Assembly (NCBI GenBank): GCA_945860225.1
Contig: CAMAPT010000022.1
Span: 1-49,588 of the forward strand
Direction of reading: 5' to 3'
Source of the DNA: Chitinophaga pinensis
GTDB taxonomy: Bacteria; Bacteroidota; Bacteroidia; B-17B0; Aurantibacillaceae
DNA length: 49,588 nucleotides
Numbering within the stretch: the stretch's first letter is position 1; every line of letters begins with the position of its first letter. The position numbers and the translations under genes are program-made. This document shows, piece by piece, positions 193 through 25,877 of the stretch. The notes under the pieces were generated by a model. That model saw only the letters and a program-made list of their open reading frames with translations, made no database searches and had not been told where the DNA came from.

Positions 193-1163
193 TCACCTTT
201 CATTCGAGAAAAAAATATACCATTTTATAAAATCAATGCGATGTTTTAAAGTCAATCCTCTATGTATATCAAGATGATTTTTCAAATGACTAAAAAAACC
301 TTCTATTCCATTTGTAGTTGCAGGTATTTTAGGGTTTGATAAATAATTAAACATATTAGGTAAAGCTCTTTTCATCGTATAATAAGATCGTCTTACTAGT
401 TTATGAGTATACCAATAACGTCCAGTTGCGTGATGGTATGTTTTTTCCATTAAATAATTTTTATTTTTCAAATACCATTGCTCTAATATTTTGGTCCAAT
501 AGATTTGATCATTCTTTGTGTTTATTTTCAGAAGCAGTAATACAATTTTTCTAAGCTCAATTGCAGATTCATGTTTAGGAAACCTTGTTAACCATAATAA
601 ACACATGCGTTGTATATGAACCAAGCAGCGTTGCGTTAAAACATCAGGTAATGCTTTTTTAATCGCTTTTAGAATGCTTTTGTGACCATCTGTTGTAATG
701 CTTTCTATCTGCACACCCAATCTGATAAGATTATCTAAATCTTCTTTTATCTCCGAATAATCCTCTCCATCTGAAAATCTTATTAATTGAGTGTAGCCGT
801 CGGAATGGTCTTGATAACAGAGCAAACAGAATTTCTCAAAGTATGTTGCATCAATCCTAAGATTTACCTGGCTTCTTTTTATTATTTTAACTTGAGGTGA
901 TTGCTTTAGAAAATAATAAAATATTCTTTGCAAAGTATCTTTCGATAAACCACTATCTCTTGATAGGGTAGCAAAATTTTGTCTCTCTATGACCCACTTT
1001 TTAAACCATATAAATCGATTTTCTAGCTTTTGATTTGGATCATTTCTAGTGAATAAAATATCACAGTTTTTACATTTAAATCTCTGTTTATTTTGCCTTT
1101 TACCCCATTTAATAACATCCAAACTACCACACGCCCAACAGCGCTTTTTTTTGACTTTTTCAT
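193..1163 (-). CDS. IS1249-type transposase, probably read by -1 frameshift
   Basis: This is a DDE transposase that cuts and rejoins the IS ends. Counting from the in-frame TTG at 1122, D91 (DATYF), D145 (TTDGHK) and E274 (NGIEGF) are the likely catalytic triad, and C166/H169 follow the second Asp as in IS256-type enzymes. The end (HRGLTLKHRIDFIKWY) resembles IS1249 proteins. A start at TTG would cut a zinc ribbon in half: the first CxxC (CWACG) is encoded upstream in the same frame, but no ATG, GTG or TTG precedes it before an in-frame stop. An ATG at 1163 lies in the other frame. A -1 slip on the A8 run (1145-1152 on the plus strand) joins it to the zinc ribbon as MKKSKKKRCWACG. This may be programmed frameshifting, transcript slippage, or an inactivating indel. 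Confidence 0.75.
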
Positions 1164-20118: not shown

Positions 20119-21687
20119 TTAGATTGATCTAATATTACTATCTGGAGCTTTTTCAATTCGCAAAAGAATTTTATAAAACTTATCATGCTCTAATTGATTT
20201 GTCATAGCATTCAATTTACATGTATTAGCTCTGAAATTTTTCCCATAAGCTTCAAATGAAAATCCTTTAAAAATCAGATATAAATATTCCTTCGCGGCAA
20301 ATATTTGTTTGGCACTAGTGCTAAACTTTTCTTTCCTGAATTTCTCGATCATTGAGAAATATTCTTCCTTAGTTTTAGGTTCTTCTACTATTCCTAATCC
20401 ATAATATTTTGGTTGAGCCGCAGCAATGACAGGAATACCTCTTACAACCATATCAACTCCAACCGAACTAATCCATACAAGTCCTGAGGTAATATATGGC
20501 ATAATTGAAAAAGTATTTATCTTTTCCCAATCATTAATAACTAAAATGTTTTTCATGCCTTTTGATTCTTCAATAGCATAATCACCAATCTTAATGGCCA
20601 CTTTATTTTTTACAATTCCTTCACCAGGATGAGCCCGTATTATTAATTTAATATCAGGCTTATCAGAAAAATAGTTTATAGTTTGCTTTACAAAATCACG
20701 GTGACTTTTAAAAATTGTCTCTCTATTAAGCAGCGAACTATCTCCTATAACGTTACAAGCCAGTAAAAATATTTTTTCATTTCCTTTAACAAAACTTGCA
20801 ATATGTTCAGGCAAAACAGCATTTAATTCGGCTTGCTGTACTTTCATAAATTCATTTAACCATTTTTCATTCTGTTTTTTTCCTTCCAAAAAATTAAAAT
20901 ATTTATTCAATTCTTCCTCTTTTTTATTATCCATCTTACCAAGATAATTCATCCATCCACGGACATTGTACTCTAGCGAAGGGGCATTAAAATTGTAAAT
21001 CATATGACCTTGCCGCCAACCCCATCCTTCCACACAAACCGTTTCTTGACCTACATTGCGTGCACCCTTTAAGATCATAGGAGTATCTCTTATCAACCCA
21101 CTGTAACAGAAAAAACTATAGTATTTGTTTTCAAAACATAACTTTTGTACCCGCGCTCCGTTACGTGCAGATTCACTTCTTAAATCTTCAAGTTTTTGTT
21201 TATACAAACTTTGATTCTCAGTAATGTCTTGCGACTCAACATGAAGATCATACGCCAAAGCAGCAATCGAACTACCTAATGAATCCTCATAGAACTGTTT
21301 AAAATCAGATATAGAAAATGGCAAGGAATTACAATCCAATAAAATTACTCCTGGTATTTTCTCAACGGCTTTCCAAAAATTAAAATACGAGGGTTGATGA
21401 TATAGTCTTTCTATTTCGTCTCTTTTGTAAAGAATTGTTGTTTCAAAACCCAACTGCCTAATTACACATGCTGCATACGCCGACCACTCAATCCAAGTTT
21501 TATTACGAAAAGCGCTAATTAGTACTCGTCCTTTAACGTCTGGAAGATTTTTCAATTGAGAAAGCCATTGGTCAATAGCCTGACGGGGAGTTACAATATT
21601 TTTGGCAGATATTGGTGATAATCTTTCAATCTCCCCAATTACTGTTTTTGCGAGTGCTTTTAATTTTCTTCTAATTTTTGCTTTCAC
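20119..21687 (-). CDS. unassigned GT-B/capsule-synthesis-like protein
   Basis: This soluble protein (522 aa) is not confidently recognised. The N-terminal third has an alpha/beta pattern (GRVLISAFRNKTWIEWSAY) resembling a nucleotide-sugar-binding fold. The C-terminal half has IKLIIRAHPGE (near 345-355), NDWEKINTFSIMPYIT and WISSVGVDMVVRGIPVIAA. This order of a His-Pro loop and a Gly-x-Pro donor loop recalls KpsS/LipB capsule proteins and CDP-glycerol-type transferases. A glycosyltransferase or phosphate-linked transferase role is inferred from fold and context. It lies between the methyltransferase and flippase genes, gaps of 2 and 3 bases. Confidence 0.6.
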   Translation of the reverse strand: MKAKIRRKLKALAKTVIGEIERLSPISAKNIVTPRQAIDQWLSQLKNLPDVKGRVLISAFRNKTWIEWSAYAACVIRQLGFETTILYKRDEIERLYHQPSYFNFWKAVEKIPGVILLDCNSLPFSISDFKQFYEDSLGSSIAALAYDLHVESQDITENQSLYKQKLEDLRSESARNGARVQKLCFENKYYSFFCYSGLIRDTPMILKGARNVGQETVCVEGWGWRQGHMIYNFNAPSLEYNVRGWMNYLGKMDNKKEEELNKYFNFLEGKKQNEKWLNEFMKVQQAELNAVLPEHIASFVKGNEKIFLLACNVIGDSSLLNRETIFKSHRDFVKQTINYFSDKPDIKLIIRAHPGEGIVKNKVAIKIGDYAIEESKGMKNILVINDWEKINTFSIMPYITSGLVWISSVGVDMVVRGIPVIAAAQPKYYGLGIVEEPKTKEEYFSMIEKFRKEKFSTSAKQIFAAKEYLYLIFKGFSFEAYGKNFRANTCKLNAMTNQLEHDKFYKILLRIEKAPDSNIRSI

Positions 21688-21689
21688 TT

Positions 21690-22382
21690 TTATTCCTTAA
21701 TTAAATAAGGCGTGCCTCTTTCGCTTACTTTAATTTTTTTACTTTGCTCACCGAAGAAATCCTCAACAGCTTTTCTCGCACCAGGCCAACGATCTTCATC
21801 TTCTTTTTTTGCTAAAAAATCGTCAAATACTATTAACCCGCCACTACTCACTTTAGGATACAAATACTTTAATGTATCCATGTATGACAAAAACAAATCA
21901 CCATCTACATGCAATATTGCGATAGGTCGGTCAGGATGATTTGGCAACGAGTCACAAAAAAAACCCTTTGTTAGAACTAATTCATTAGAGTTAGGGATTC
22001 CGCCCTCATCAAGGACAGTTTTAATAAAATTTTCCGTGTATTGATATTTTCCACTTGGAGAAGTTGACCACTCTCCTTTTTTAGGTTTACGGTAAGAATC
22101 ATCTTCTACACTTGGTTCGGGAAATCCTTCAAAACTATCGTATCCGAAAATTTTTCTTTGCCCTCCTTCAGATTTTTCGAGTAAAGAATTTATTGAGGAC
22201 ATAACTAATAACGATCTACCTCTTCCTATTCCACATTCTACTATATCCCCCTCAACATTTGATACCATTTGAAAATATTTCCACCAATATAAAACATTTC
22301 CAATATTACCTATATTTAATTGATGAAATCTTTCATCAATATCTTCATTGTGCTTTCCTTCAAAAGAAAAAAGTTGTTTCAT
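21690..22382 (-). CDS. TylF/MycF-type sugar O-methyltransferase
   Basis: This SAM-dependent methyltransferase (230 aa) belongs to the macrocin O-methyltransferase family. Visible motifs: the SAM loop IVECGIGRGRSLL, GYDSFEGFPEP, and LHVDGDLFLSYMDTL with GGLIVFDDF, whose Asp residues bind the metal in MycF. Such enzymes methylate sugar hydroxyls and are common in polysaccharide loci. It starts one base after the neuB-like gene, so the methylated residue might be the nonulosonic acid or its neighbour. Confidence 0.85.
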   Translation of the reverse strand: MKQLFSFEGKHNEDIDERFHQLNIGNIGNVLYWWKYFQMVSNVEGDIVECGIGRGRSLLVMSSINSLLEKSEGGQRKIFGYDSFEGFPEPSVEDDSYRKPKKGEWSTSPSGKYQYTENFIKTVLDEGGIPNSNELVLTKGFFCDSLPNHPDRPIAILHVDGDLFLSYMDTLKYLYPKVSSGGLIVFDDFLAKKEDEDRWPGARKAVEDFFGEQSKKIKVSERGTPYLIKE

Positions 22383-22383
22383 C

Positions 22384-23886
22384 TTAAAAATGTTCTAGTA
22401 TTGTTTTTCTCTGCATTGGATCTAACTCGTTAATTTTCGGGTCTGTATAGAACGAATCGTTTCTAAAATGTGTTGTAGACACCTCCTCTAATATAGTGCC
22501 TTTTTCGCTCCAAAATGCATGTTTTACTCCGCGTTCAACAGTTAATATATCTCCTTTTCTCAAAACAGACTTGATTCCGTTCATACTTATGCCTAATTCT
22601 CCCCTCAAAACATGAAACGTTTCTTCCTTCTTGACATGATGTTGTTCAGGATGATGTTGACCTGGAAATACAACTATAATTTTTTTACAATATTCGCGAT
22701 TAATCAAATTCACAATTAATATTCCAAATTCATGAAACATATCTAAACCGTAATGATGAGATAATTCGATTTCAGCTTTCTCACTTAATACAACACCTGC
22801 CTCCGATAATAAACCTTTTGCTTCATGAATAATTTTTCGAATTTTATAATAATTATCAATTTCTGATAATTCGAAAATTGATTCGTTTGCTTTATAATCC
22901 TTGGTCGCAGTGAAACTAGCTCTAACGCGTCCAAACTGGCTACTATTCAGTTGTCCTTCCTTACAAGGCATAGCAAAGAAAACGTCCTCAAATTTTATTT
23001 TACTTCCTTTTTTAATATCATTTTTAGCAAACACACCACGTTTCAACGACAACAAAGAATCTGCCTCATCCTTTGTTATGACTTTATCATTGTTACCACA
23101 AATGTCAAAAGCTACCTTAGCCTCTGAAATCCATTTATCTGTTTCTTGCGGATTCATAGAATAATTATTCAATATGATGGCATCTGTTGGTAAACCTACG
23201 TGTCGTTCAAAAATTTTTGCACCTTTTGCAATTGCTACTTTTATCACATCAAAATTATCAGGTGCTTCATGTCCTGAGTAACCTATACATAAATCCTCAT
23301 AACGATGTTTTAATTTGGAAATAAAATTTAAATTGAGAACATTGTTCGGACTTGGATAAATTCCTACGCAATGAAGAATTGCAAAGTTAGAATCTCTATG
23401 ATTTAAATATGTGACTAAATTATCTATTTCAAACAAATTTAACCCTCCTGTAGAAGCAATAATTGGTTTATTGGTTTTTACAATTTTTTCCAATAACGGC
23501 CAATCATCTGCACTACAACTGGCAATTTTAATTATATCAATCTCATGTTTTAAAATGACATCTACGGATTCTTCATCAAATGGGGTACACATCGAAATCA
23601 TACCCTCTGTTTTAATAGCATTTACCAATTGTAAAAATTGATCTTGCTTTAATTCTGTTGATAAAAAACGACTGATATGTTTAGCCTTTGTATCATTACG
23701 AAAATCAGGATGAATGAAAGAATCCAACTGACGATATTGTAATTTAACAGCCGCTTTAATGTTGTGTTTTTTTGCTATTTTACCCATCTCCTTAATGATA
23801 TTAATTCCATGATTAACATCCCCTTGATGGTTATTGGCCATTTCGAAAATAAATAGATTGTCAAACAATCCGTTGTTTTGTTTCAT
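22384..23886 (-). CDS. neuB: NeuB-family nonulosonate synthase fused to a cupin
   Basis: The protein (500 aa) joins three parts. Residues 1-270 are the NeuB TIM barrel condensing phosphoenolpyruvate with an aldose (EMANNHQGDVNHG, KLQYRQLD, CTPFDEESV, IKIASCSADDWPLL, GYSGHE). Residues about 280-345 are the SAF/antifreeze-like domain (KRGVFAKNDIKKGSKI, AMPCKEGQLNSSQFG). The last 120 residues are a cupin with HHPEQHHVKKEETF, a metal-site pattern, and TTHFRNDSFYTDPKI near the end, which resembles D-lyxose isomerases. Ordinary NeuB proteins (about 350 aa) lack the cupin. The product is a sialic-acid-like sugar; KDN, Neu or other type cannot be told apart. It lies 3 bases after neuA. Confidence 0.88.
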   Translation of the reverse strand: MKQNNGLFDNLFIFEMANNHQGDVNHGINIIKEMGKIAKKHNIKAAVKLQYRQLDSFIHPDFRNDTKAKHISRFLSTELKQDQFLQLVNAIKTEGMISMCTPFDEESVDVILKHEIDIIKIASCSADDWPLLEKIVKTNKPIIASTGGLNLFEIDNLVTYLNHRDSNFAILHCVGIYPSPNNVLNLNFISKLKHRYEDLCIGYSGHEAPDNFDVIKVAIAKGAKIFERHVGLPTDAIILNNYSMNPQETDKWISEAKVAFDICGNNDKVITKDEADSLLSLKRGVFAKNDIKKGSKIKFEDVFFAMPCKEGQLNSSQFGRVRASFTATKDYKANESIFELSEIDNYYKIRKIIHEAKGLLSEAGVVLSEKAEIELSHHYGLDMFHEFGILIVNLINREYCKKIIVVFPGQHHPEQHHVKKEETFHVLRGELGISMNGIKSVLRKGDILTVERGVKHAFWSEKGTILEEVSTTHFRNDSFYTDPKINELDPMQRKTILEHF

Positions 23887-23889
23887 ATT

Positions 23890-24891
23890 TTATAGTTGAT
23901 TTATACTAATTAACCTATCATCAATGTAATAATCTGCTGCAGGTTTTCCAAATTTAAGCTGATGATATTTGACTCCCCAGTCGCTCATTTGTTTTTTTGT
24001 TACCTCCGACCAATCAATTCCTGTTTTAGACCCACGGGCTGTAAAGAGAATAATAATATTATTATTATCATACAATTTATTAATTTTTTCAATTACAGAT
24101 TTATTTGGCGTAGAAAGAGAATAGTCATTATTGGGTGATAAATTGGCCACAACGCCATCTATATCAAAACAAAAAGTTTTATCAATAAATTCTTTTTTAG
24201 CCTCTACACTCAACTTATTCAAATCTGTATAATAATCTATATCATAATTAGTATCCATTATATAAGATCCAATTATATCACCAGTCATTGATTTTTTATT
24301 TAAAATTGTTGTACCTCTTGTAATATCAATTGAAGCATTTTGTAAATATACTTTAGGCAGTTTTTGACGTGGTTGATTATATGCCTCATTAATTTCATTG
24401 TCAATCACTACAGGTTTTAATACACCACCCTGCATAAACCACATCTTAAATGGCGTTTCAGGAGCTAAAGTGACTGATCTAATCGAATCCCACTCTTTGT
24501 TTTGAATCAACAATTTAATCATATTATCAATGTCATCAATATCTCTGAATGGGCTTGTAGGTCTCAAATGAACTACGATATCAGCAAAATAATTTTCTCT
24601 TTCTTTTAAATAACCTAATACGTGATTAAATACATCAAAATCAGTTGCAAAATCATGAGATATTGACTCTGGCCTTATAAAAGGAATTTCTGCACCAAAA
24701 GACTTTGCTATATCTGAATAATATATACTATCTGTGCTTACAATAGTCCGATTTATGAATTTTGATGACAATGATTGCTCTATTGAATAAGCCATTAACG
24801 GCTTACCATTAATAGACAATATGTTTTTATCTGGAATTGATTTTGATCCGCTTCTAGCTGGAATTACAGTTAAAATATTCATATTTTTCAT
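23890..24891 (-). CDS. neuA: CMP-nonulosonate synthetase fused to a HAD phosphatase
   Basis: The N-terminal part (about 1-225) is an acylneuraminate cytidylyltransferase: TVIPARSGSKSIPDKNI nucleotide loop, FIRPESIS, and VVHLRPTSPFR. It activates the nonulosonic acid with CTP. The C-terminal 110 residues are a HAD domain with FDIDGVVANL (DxDG), LFTARGSK and KPAADYYIDDR. HAD partners of this kind can remove a 9-phosphate from nonulosonates. The ATG at 24891 overlaps the upstream stop as ATGA. An ATG-initiated longer form from 24912 is possible but would overlap the epimerase gene by 25 bases. Confidence 0.88.
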   Translation of the reverse strand: MKNMNILTVIPARSGSKSIPDKNILSINGKPLMAYSIEQSLSSKFINRTIVSTDSIYYSDIAKSFGAEIPFIRPESISHDFATDFDVFNHVLGYLKERENYFADIVVHLRPTSPFRDIDDIDNMIKLLIQNKEWDSIRSVTLAPETPFKMWFMQGGVLKPVVIDNEINEAYNQPRQKLPKVYLQNASIDITRGTTILNKKSMTGDIIGSYIMDTNYDIDYYTDLNKLSVEAKKEFIDKTFCFDIDGVVANLSPNNDYSLSTPNKSVIEKINKLYDNNNIIILFTARGSKTGIDWSEVTKKQMSDWGVKYHQLKFGKPAADYYIDDRLISINQL

Positions 24892-25877
24892 TTTAAATAT
24901 TCCCAATACCACTCTACAGCTTCCATTAATCCTTTTTCTAGATCATGACTAGGTTGATATCCCAACAACCGACACGCCTTATCTATACTCGCTAAGGAAT
25001 GCGGAATATCGCCCTGACGATTTGGACCGTGAATCACCTCGATATCTTTTATTTTTATATCATACGTGCTCAAATAAGTTTTCAATAAATGCAATAATTG
25101 ATTTAAATCAGTTCGTTCTCCTACAGCTGTATTAAAAACTTGACCAATGGCTTCTGGATTATAAGTAAGCATTGCTAATTCGTTCATTTGCAATACATTA
25201 TTTATGTAAGTGAAATCCCGACTATTAGTCCCATCTCCATTAATTATCGGACTTTGATAATTCATCAACTGCATGCAAAATTTAGGTATAGCAGCCGCGT
25301 AGGCTCCATTCGGATCTTGACGTCGTCCATATACATTAAAATACCTTAACCCTATACATTCTAATCCGTAATTTAATGCAAACACATGAGCATATAATTC
25401 ATTCACGTATTTTGTAACAGCATACGGAGAAAGTGGTTTTCCTATTTGCTCCTCTATTTTTGGCAACGCTTCGCTATCACCATAAGTACTGCTGCTAGCC
25501 GCATAAACAAATCGTTTCACTTTTGCATCTCTAGCTGCTACCAACATATTCAAAAAACCATCTACATTTACACTATTAGTGGTGATAGGGTCATTGATAC
25601 TTCTTGGTACCGAACCAAGTGCAGCCTGATGCAAAATATAATCGACTCCTTCACAAGCCTGTTTGCAAGTCTGCAAATCCCTAATATCTCCCTCGATAAA
25701 AGAAAACAATGGGTTATCTAATAGATGAGCAATGTTTTCTCGTTTTCCGGTGGAAAAATTGTCTAAACAAACAATATGATTGTTTTTTTTAATAAAATAA
25801 TCACACAAATTACTTCCTATAAATCCTGCACCTCCGGTTATTAATATTTTAGATTTTGTAATTGTTTTACTGGCCAT
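24888..25877 (-). CDS. wbpP: UDP-HexNAc 4-epimerase, WbpP/TviC-like
   Basis: This NAD-dependent SDR epimerase (329 aa) is expected to interconvert UDP-GlcNAc and UDP-GalNAc. It shows the Rossmann loop GGAGFIGSNL, the catalytic SSS...YAVTK (Ser and Tyr-x3-Lys) and GLRYFNVYGRRQDPNGAYAA, which is the hallmark of the WbpP subgroup. An eight-residue lead (MASKTITK) precedes the fold. It is the first gene of the 22-gene operon, with a free region of 178 bases upstream. Its product would feed glycosyltransferases or further modifying enzymes. Confidence 0.9.
   Translation of the reverse strand: MASKTITKSKILITGGAGFIGSNLCDYFIKKNNHIVCLDNFSTGKRENIAHLLDNPLFSFIEGDIRDLQTCKQACEGVDYILHQAALGSVPRSINDPITTNSVNVDGFLNMLVAARDAKVKRFVYAASSSTYGDSEALPKIEEQIGKPLSPYAVTKYVNELYAHVFALNYGLECIGLRYFNVYGRRQDPNGAYAAAIPKFCMQLMNYQSPIINGDGTNSRDFTYINNVLQMNELAMLTYNPEAIGQVFNTAVGERTDLNQLLHLLKTYLSTYDIKIKDIEVIHGPNRQGDIPHSLASIDKACRLLGYQPSHDLEKGLMEAVEWYWEYLK

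Follow-up and report, generated by a model that had tools for sequence, protein, structure and literature searches.

Among the closest described systems is the capsule region of Serratia marcescens, whose capsule holds 2-keto-3-deoxy-nononic acid (KDN or Kdn) and N-acetylneuraminic acid (Neu5Ac) at about 20:1; both sugars are lost on deletion of the capsule region, and deletion of neuB lowers the thiobarbituric sialic acid signal 4-fold (PMC9000132). In the Neisseria NeuB enzyme, Arg314 may position the N-acetyl group of N-acetylmannosamine (ManNAc) and mannose is not accepted, while the human enzyme converts mannose 6-phosphate to phosphorylated KDN (PMC6795526). Here we describe a NeuB-type synthase gene of Chitinophaga pinensis, found in a stretch of 49,588 nucleotides (assembly GCA_945860225.1, contig CAMAPT010000022.1, positions 1 to 49,588 of the forward strand; hereafter the window), whose product continues into a C-terminal cupin related to D-lyxose isomerases. 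It is likely that this fusion protein acts as a bifunctional isomerase-synthase, which would make its own aldose without an acetamido group and condense it with phosphoenolpyruvate (PEP) to an ulosonate, with CMP-Kdn or its eight-carbon homologue as the likeliest end point in the window.

The gene is an open reading frame (ORF) on the minus strand, positions 22384-23886, which starts with ATG and encodes 500 amino acid residues followed by a stop codon. It is divided as follows:

22384-23886, minus strand: NeuB-type PEP-dependent ulosonate synthase joined to a D-lyxose-isomerase-like cupin, 500 residues, according to Pfam, profile searches and predicted structure.
23062-23862, minus strand: NeuB TIM barrel, about residues 9-275, where all 67 aligned fused proteins keep the residues of the PEP/metal site.
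22882-23049, minus strand: SAF/antifreeze-like segment, about residues 280-335, with a SAF match of 13.9 bits, below the Pfam cut-off of 21.
22387-22875, minus strand: C-terminal cupin with an N-terminal helix, lyxose-isomerase-like, residues 338-500, with the active-site set K402, Q415, H417, K420, E422, H456 and E468.

According to Pfam, the protein matches NeuB (PF03102) with 149.6 bits (cut-off 22.1), Cupin_2 with 33.4 bits (cut-off 27.2) and Lyx_isomer (PF07385) with 22.2 bits (cut-off 20.8). AlphaFold models show a mean predicted local distance difference test (pLDDT) score of 92.9 for the full-length fusion and 92.0 for the cupin domain alone. This domain reading is well supported. The fusion is a real gene, neither a chance joining nor a gene-calling artefact, because near-identical orthologues exist and a single open frame of at least 480 residues, matching the window protein past residue 480, is found at every one of the 80 genome loci fetched. 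The orthologues come from 60 related genomes, three of which carry the fusion: two with 94 and 93% identity over residues 1-500, and the third with 49%. The 80 loci, to which all counts on 80 loci refer, are the best 80 from a scan of genome contigs in which 348 of 386 candidates were confirmed; only these were examined, therefore the fraction of relatives that are fused cannot be given.

Residue conservation was analyzed in an alignment of 67 rows, comprising the window protein and 66 of the 80 fetched relatives; the other 14 were removed manually, in most cases because the alignment already contained a similar organism. Residues E15, K48, Q50, T101, K120, S123, S204, H206, E227 and H229 are kept in all 67 fused proteins and make up the PEP/metal site of the NeuB domain. 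Several of them are listed for the Neisseria site (PMC6795526). The position of N. meningitidis Arg314 is occupied by Met306 in the window and by Met, Phe or Ile across the 67 rows, and Arg is also absent from it in all 52 full-length viral copies described below. From the loss of Arg314 in 67 of 67 proteins we infer that the acceptor would be an aldose without an acetamido group, and the absence of this ManNAc-binding residue fits a mannose-type acceptor.

It could be argued that the fusion makes an ordinary acetamido nonulosonate instead (Neu5Ac, legionaminic or pseudaminic acid), given that the synthase half partially matches TIGR03569 (N-acetylneuraminate synthase, NeuB) and TIGR03586 (pseudaminic acid synthase, PseI), and that the CMP-transferase encoded next to it partially matches the PseF model. 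However, the scores are far below those needed (150.2 bits for an equivalog cut-off of 399.65, 128.9 for one of 340.25, and 114 of 206, respectively), Arg314 is missing, and no amino-sugar genes are found on the contig, so this explanation is very improbable. The source genome, of 2.9 Mb and nearly complete, encodes a second NeuB on contig 17, which the tree places among ordinary NeuB proteins; Epimerase_2 (three in the genome) and DegT (14 in the genome) show no match on the window contig, and both are present on contig 17 with that other NeuB. The genome also encodes a PF00793 protein of 280 residues, a possible KdsA.

The original prediction had likened the cupin to D-lyxose/mannose ketol-isomerases on the basis of two motifs, both of which are present (HHPEQHHVKKEETF, residues 411-424, and TTHFRNDSFYTDPKI, residues 471-485), and profile, fold and active-site residues all place its best relatives in that family. 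A profile built from 50 cupin domains matched first the D-lyxose/D-mannose isomerase 2y0o (1e-17) and second 7nzo (3e-16), colinear from the helix through the barrel to the C-terminal strand, and it also matched an archaeal phosphomannose isomerase (2.5e-8). With the window sequence as the only query, the two lyxose isomerases gave 1.4e-8 and 1.4e-7, L-ribose isomerases were weak and quercetin dioxygenase reached 0.15. All 50 domains match Cupin_2 and Lyx_isomer at E <=0.01, and 18 of them also MannoseP_isomer; the isolated window domain scores 26.8 bits with PF07385. With NF051472 (D-lyxose/D-mannose isomerase) the window protein scores 17.7 bits and stays below the equivalog cut-off of 350. 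A six-frame search of the window's own genome with PF07385 reported no match.

The predicted cupin fold superimposes on 7nzo with a Z of 19.5 and a root-mean-square deviation (rmsd) of 1.6 over 144 residues (model residues 8-155 of 163), the N-terminal helical part included. Among the matches listed (999 chains aligned), lyxose isomerases are on top (Z 17.7-19.5, with values of 19.5, 18.9 and 17.8 among them), followed by L-ribose isomerases (15.2-16.0), archaeal phosphomannose isomerase (13.0) and the rest (<=12.6). The lyxose isomerase of Thermofilum is reported to contact sugar and metal through K62, H75, H77, K86, E88, H143, E156 and D163 (PMC8378251), and the first seven of these align unambiguously with K402, Q415, H417, K420, E422, H456 and E468 of the window protein. 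K402, H417, K420, E422, H456 and E468 do not vary among the 67 fused proteins, while at position 415 there is His in 42 of them and Gln in the other 25; the putative metal ligands of the window protein are Gln415, His417, Glu422 and His456, versus His, His, Glu and His in PF07385.

These results also bear on a different role for the cupin, namely that its substrate is the product or some other sugar (it might, for instance, epimerise or isomerise the ulosonate), and that it does not make the acceptor. Cupins are functionally diverse and include sugar epimerases (PMC8378251), and the profile also matches non-isomerase cupins; the nearest folds and residues, however, are those of aldose-ketose isomerases, and we consider such a role improbable. 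Furthermore, the 2S aldoses made by the lyxose-isomerase family share the C2 configuration of ManNAc, which counts against it.

In the favored bifunctional route, the cupin would bind a divalent metal at Gln415, His417, Glu422 and His456, with Lys402, Lys420 and Glu468 around it, and homology, fold and residues suggest that it interconverts a ketose and a 2S aldose of lyxo/manno type. The NeuB domain, whose PEP/metal site is intact, would then join this aldose to PEP to give a 3-deoxy-2-ulosonate without an acetamido group. In the protein encoded next to it, a HAD-type domain probably removes phosphate and a CTP-transferase domain would make the CMP sugar. The likeliest product would be CMP-Kdn, from fructose (or its 6-phosphate) through mannose (or its 6-phosphate) to Kdn; alternatively, xylulose (or its 5-phosphate) could be converted through lyxose (or its 5-phosphate) to the eight-carbon homologue. 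Dephosphorylation of a phosphorylated ulosonate is suggested, less firmly than the domain assignments, because a related HAD protein accompanies the synthase in both of the genomic settings described below. If this is correct, one protein makes an acidic sugar from a ketose and PEP and a second activates it, so that Kdn-like surface sugars would be reached in few steps, and a simple sequence rule (cupin tail, no Arg314) would find bacteria that make non-acetamido ulosonates.

Several observations weigh against this route. In the profile search, the third place after the two lyxose isomerases is taken by a group without isomerase function, the quercetin dioxygenases (7e-13, over the barrel only), ahead of L-ribose isomerases (1e-6), and in Pfam Cupin_2 scores above Lyx_isomer in the window protein (33.4 and 22.2 bits), although both pass their cut-offs. 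Of the two outcomes that would have spoken against the original prediction, a cupin without metal-binding residues and a best match to a non-isomerase family, neither was observed, with these reservations and with one of the four ligands, the first, being Gln rather than His in the window. In addition, Thermofilum D163 meets the invariant D477 only after a two-residue shift. Bacterial NeuB enzymes usually use unphosphorylated acceptors, and the acceptor of the Neisseria enzyme is unphosphorylated (PMC6795526); characterised cupin relatives also use free sugars, whereas the HAD partner suggests phosphate. A PGI/PMI-type (phosphoglucose/phosphomannose isomerase) protein is encoded in the window genome, therefore mannose 6-phosphate may need no dedicated isomerase. 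The phosphomannose isomerase families PF20511 and PF01050 were not found in this genome; the argument that the protein carries an isomerase to make up for a missing phosphomannose isomerase nevertheless fails, owing to the PGI/PMI-type protein.

A further point comes from unfused relatives of 365 residues that have no cupin (loci L007-L009 and L143-L145); a relative of this kind, with 41% identity, occurs in three of the 60 related genomes other than those with the fusion. Three unfused relatives are flanked by a HAD gene (47-54% identical to HADs found beside fusions in the second genomic setting) and by a gene for the thiamine diphosphate (ThDP) enzyme of that setting (42-43%), and no cupin match was found on these three contigs at E 0.001. 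The cupin is therefore not always needed. It might then be a non-catalytic module for sugar binding or dimerisation, which would hold the acceptor or product or channel it, the aldose being taken from ordinary metabolism, a view which the cupin-less relatives beside HAD and ThDP genes, the PGI/PMI-type protein and the replaced metal ligand all favor. Nevertheless, the Lys/His/Glu set is invariant over many phyla and on viral contigs, which is more than binding requires, and we regard a purely non-catalytic cupin as unlikely, if somewhat less so than one acting on the product.

Returning to the proposed isomerase-synthase, its gene is located in the window within a long minus-strand run of surface-polysaccharide genes (about 1360-25877), which encodes chain-length and export proteins, glycosyltransferases, acetyltransferases and polymerase- or flippase-like membrane proteins, assigned partly with Pfam and partly by inspection of the ORFs. 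Its closest neighbors are:

24888-25877, minus strand: NAD-dependent sugar-nucleotide epimerase, upstream; the best NCBIfam model is TviC, below its cut-off.
23890-24912, minus strand: CMP-sugar transferase (CTP_transf_3) with a C-terminal HAD-type domain (about 23893-24195), upstream neighbor, according to Pfam.
21690-22382, minus strand: TylF-like methyltransferase, directly downstream of the fusion, according to Pfam.
20119-21687, minus strand: Capsule_synth (PF05159) protein, according to Pfam.

The HAD domain of the CMP-transferase protein gives Pfam matches below the cut-off, although HAD motifs are present; the listed GTG start of this gene overlaps the next gene, and an internal ATG is possible. 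The Capsule_synth protein, which we take to be related to KpsC/KpsS, is a possible transferase for the CMP-activated ulosonate, and in six of the 80 loci a homologue with 32-60% identity lies downstream of the fusion, no more than three genes away. At the contig end, a transposase-like ORF identified by eye (193-1122, minus strand) lies beside the chain-length-control gene of the polysaccharide cluster.

Among 395 sampled genomes of the phylum, two further full fusions were found beside that of the window's own genome. The phyla represented among the 80 loci include Bacteroidota, Verrucomicrobiota, Pseudomonadota, Myxococcota, Chloroflexota, Bacillota, Actinomycetota, Nitrospirota, Elusimicrobiota and candidate phyla. 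The suggestion that such a protein is not typical of bacteria was therefore not upheld, as the fusion is spread across many phyla and also occurs on phage contigs; no match to it was found in plasmid records (E 1e-30) or in cultured-phage records (E 1e-20).

The genes that accompany the fusion define two settings. Neighbors were counted by tblastn with all cluster members, the CMP-transferases being represented by their first 215 residues alone, which excludes the HAD domain. In the fetched flanks, 54 of the 80 loci have a CMP-transferase and 23 a ThDP enzyme; no locus has both, and three have neither (L068, L069 and L074, the last of which starts at a contig end). Within 3 kb, the corresponding numbers are 52, 23, 0 and 5 (Fisher p 1e-15, a value overstated since related loci are not independent). 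The nearest CMP-transferases of at least 320 residues (n=39) show a late HAD motif in 36 cases and both motif I and motif III/IV in 28, using simple patterns.

The ThDP setting comprises 23 loci among L063-L142 (e.g., L118, L120, L122, L124-L137 and L139-L142) as well as L146 and L147, for the most part within sets of CDP-dideoxysugar genes, and includes Mycobacterium szulgai, M. angelicum and Mycolicibacterium rhodesiae. In a quick tree of the synthase with long outgroup branches, 23 rows of this setting (21 of the 80-locus set plus L146 and L147) form one group with an SH-aLRT (approximate likelihood-ratio) support of 98, while the rows of the CMP setting require three label changes. The ThDP locus tested, L135, encodes a glucose-1-phosphate cytidylyltransferase, a CDP-glucose 4,6-dehydratase and RfbH above curated cut-offs, together with a HAD phosphatase and a C-methyltransferase; its ThDP protein, of acetolactate-synthase type, scores under the acetolactate synthase cut-off and over the Pfam ThDP-domain cut-offs. 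In the 21 loci with a clustered ThDP gene no more than three genes away, RfbH or RfbF is present in 17 and HAD in 15.

We tentatively propose, with less confidence than for the function of the window protein itself, that the NeuB-cupin family supplies self-made 3-deoxy-2-ulosonates for two fates: CMP activation, the type to which the window belongs, or decarboxylation by a YerE-like ThDP enzyme, which would add the resulting chain to a CDP-3,6-dideoxy-4-ketohexose and give caryophyllose-type branched higher sugars. The caryophyllose of M. marinum is 3,6-dideoxy-4-C-(1,3,4,5-tetrahydroxyhexyl)-hexopyranose (PMC5706390). The enzyme of the erwiniose pathway, ErwE, favors longer hydroxylated 2-keto acids and MMAR_2332, of the caryophyllose pathway, is said to prefer likewise (PMC12247030); the portion of that article available to us makes no link from the ThDP carboligases to a NeuB-type synthase. 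A 3-deoxy-2-ulosonate is a hydroxylated 2-keto acid, whose C3 methylene, derived from PEP, would become the C2 methylene of the caryophyllose side chain, and the ThDP setting, with its three mycobacterial loci (L129, L131 and L132), agrees with this proposal. An objection is that the side chain of caryophyllose terminates in a methyl group, which is unsuited to a terminal phosphate and a HAD phosphatase. In the literature searched, mostly seen as titles and abstracts, no description of how the long keto-acid donor of these ThDP enzymes is supplied was found, and the ThDP setting points to a source of the long side chains in caryophyllose-type sugars that can be tested.

Scanning of viral contigs yielded 58 loci (L148-L205), 52 of which have an ORF of more than 440 residues (43 distinct aligned sequences). 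The cupin active-site residues are kept in all 52 full-length viral copies, except K402, which is kept in 51; position 415 is His in 34 and Gln in 18. In the 27 of 58 viral records checked, a T4-type major capsid protein was found in seven and a terminase above the cut-off in six, therefore some of these records are real T4-like phages; the capsid was not matched on 20 records, which may be fragments. Six of the T4-type capsid records carry the fusion (L149, L151, L162, L190, L192 and L197), while L198 carries a short cupin-less form. A ThDP gene is located no more than five genes away in 25 of the 58 viral loci, and a stand-alone HAD of about 102 residues is found in the fetched flanks of 32; that of L198 is 57% identical to the window HAD domain and adjoins the short unfused synthase relative. 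With PHROGs, three of ten viral neighbors were matched, and only the HAD received a named function. Phage contigs pair the fusion with HAD, with ThDP enzyme or CMP-transferase, with C-methyltransferase and with other sugar genes, a set that amounts to a phage-borne pathway for surface sugars. If the ThDP fate is correct, some T4-like phages carry such a branched-sugar pathway.

No description of the NeuB-cupin fusion or of its ThDP link was found in the literature, judged mostly from titles and the starts of abstracts. In the part of PMC9684190 that was available, the search words for the fusion occur apart, and the accessible text of the articles on Mycobacterium lipooligosaccharides (PMC4403928, PMC4703794, PMC12507525 and PMC13354803) names no NeuB-type gene under the terms tried.

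In comparison with known systems, the closest solved relative of the synthase half is 3g8r ("SpsE" of Chromobacterium violaceum; E 3e-89), with 43% identity to the predicted model, an rmsd of 1.5 and a TM score of 0.94 by target length. It has Phe-Pro in place of the Neisseria Arg314-Pro and, unlike the window protein, its crystallised chain of 350 residues has no cupin. The cupin half shares fold, domain extent and most active-site residues with the D-lyxose/D-mannose isomerases of B. subtilis (2y0o) and Thermofilum (TsLI; 7nzo-7nzq); these are, however, stand-alone enzymes of free sugars, with His at the position of Gln415, and their loop between the metal His and the catalytic Lys exceeds that of the fusion by six residues. 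The pathway of 3-deoxy-D-manno-octulosonic acid (KDO) relies on four separate proteins, KdsD, KdsA, KdsC and KdsB, with an isomerase of another fold. The same kinds of step, a ketose-aldose isomerase, a PEP synthase, a HAD phosphatase and a CMP-transferase, would be covered by two proteins in the window. YerE-like ThDP carboligases of the erwiniose and caryophyllose pathways (PMC12247030) find their counterpart in the ThDP setting, where a similar gene stands with CDP-dideoxyhexose genes beside the fusion, but not in the window. Finally, the NeuB of S. marcescens KL1/KL2 also has an isomerase-type domain, which belongs to COG1082, a different family from the cupin (PMC9000132), and a related genome of the window's class encodes a protein of 637 residues with NeuB, SAF and AP_endonuc_2 (xylose-isomerase-like barrel) domains (L011, 511-2424, minus strand), possibly of the same kind as the Serratia protein. 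NeuB-family synthases are therefore found joined to isomerase-type domains of two families: the Serratia protein is a published example of such a pairing, and the pairing with a cupin is a further form.
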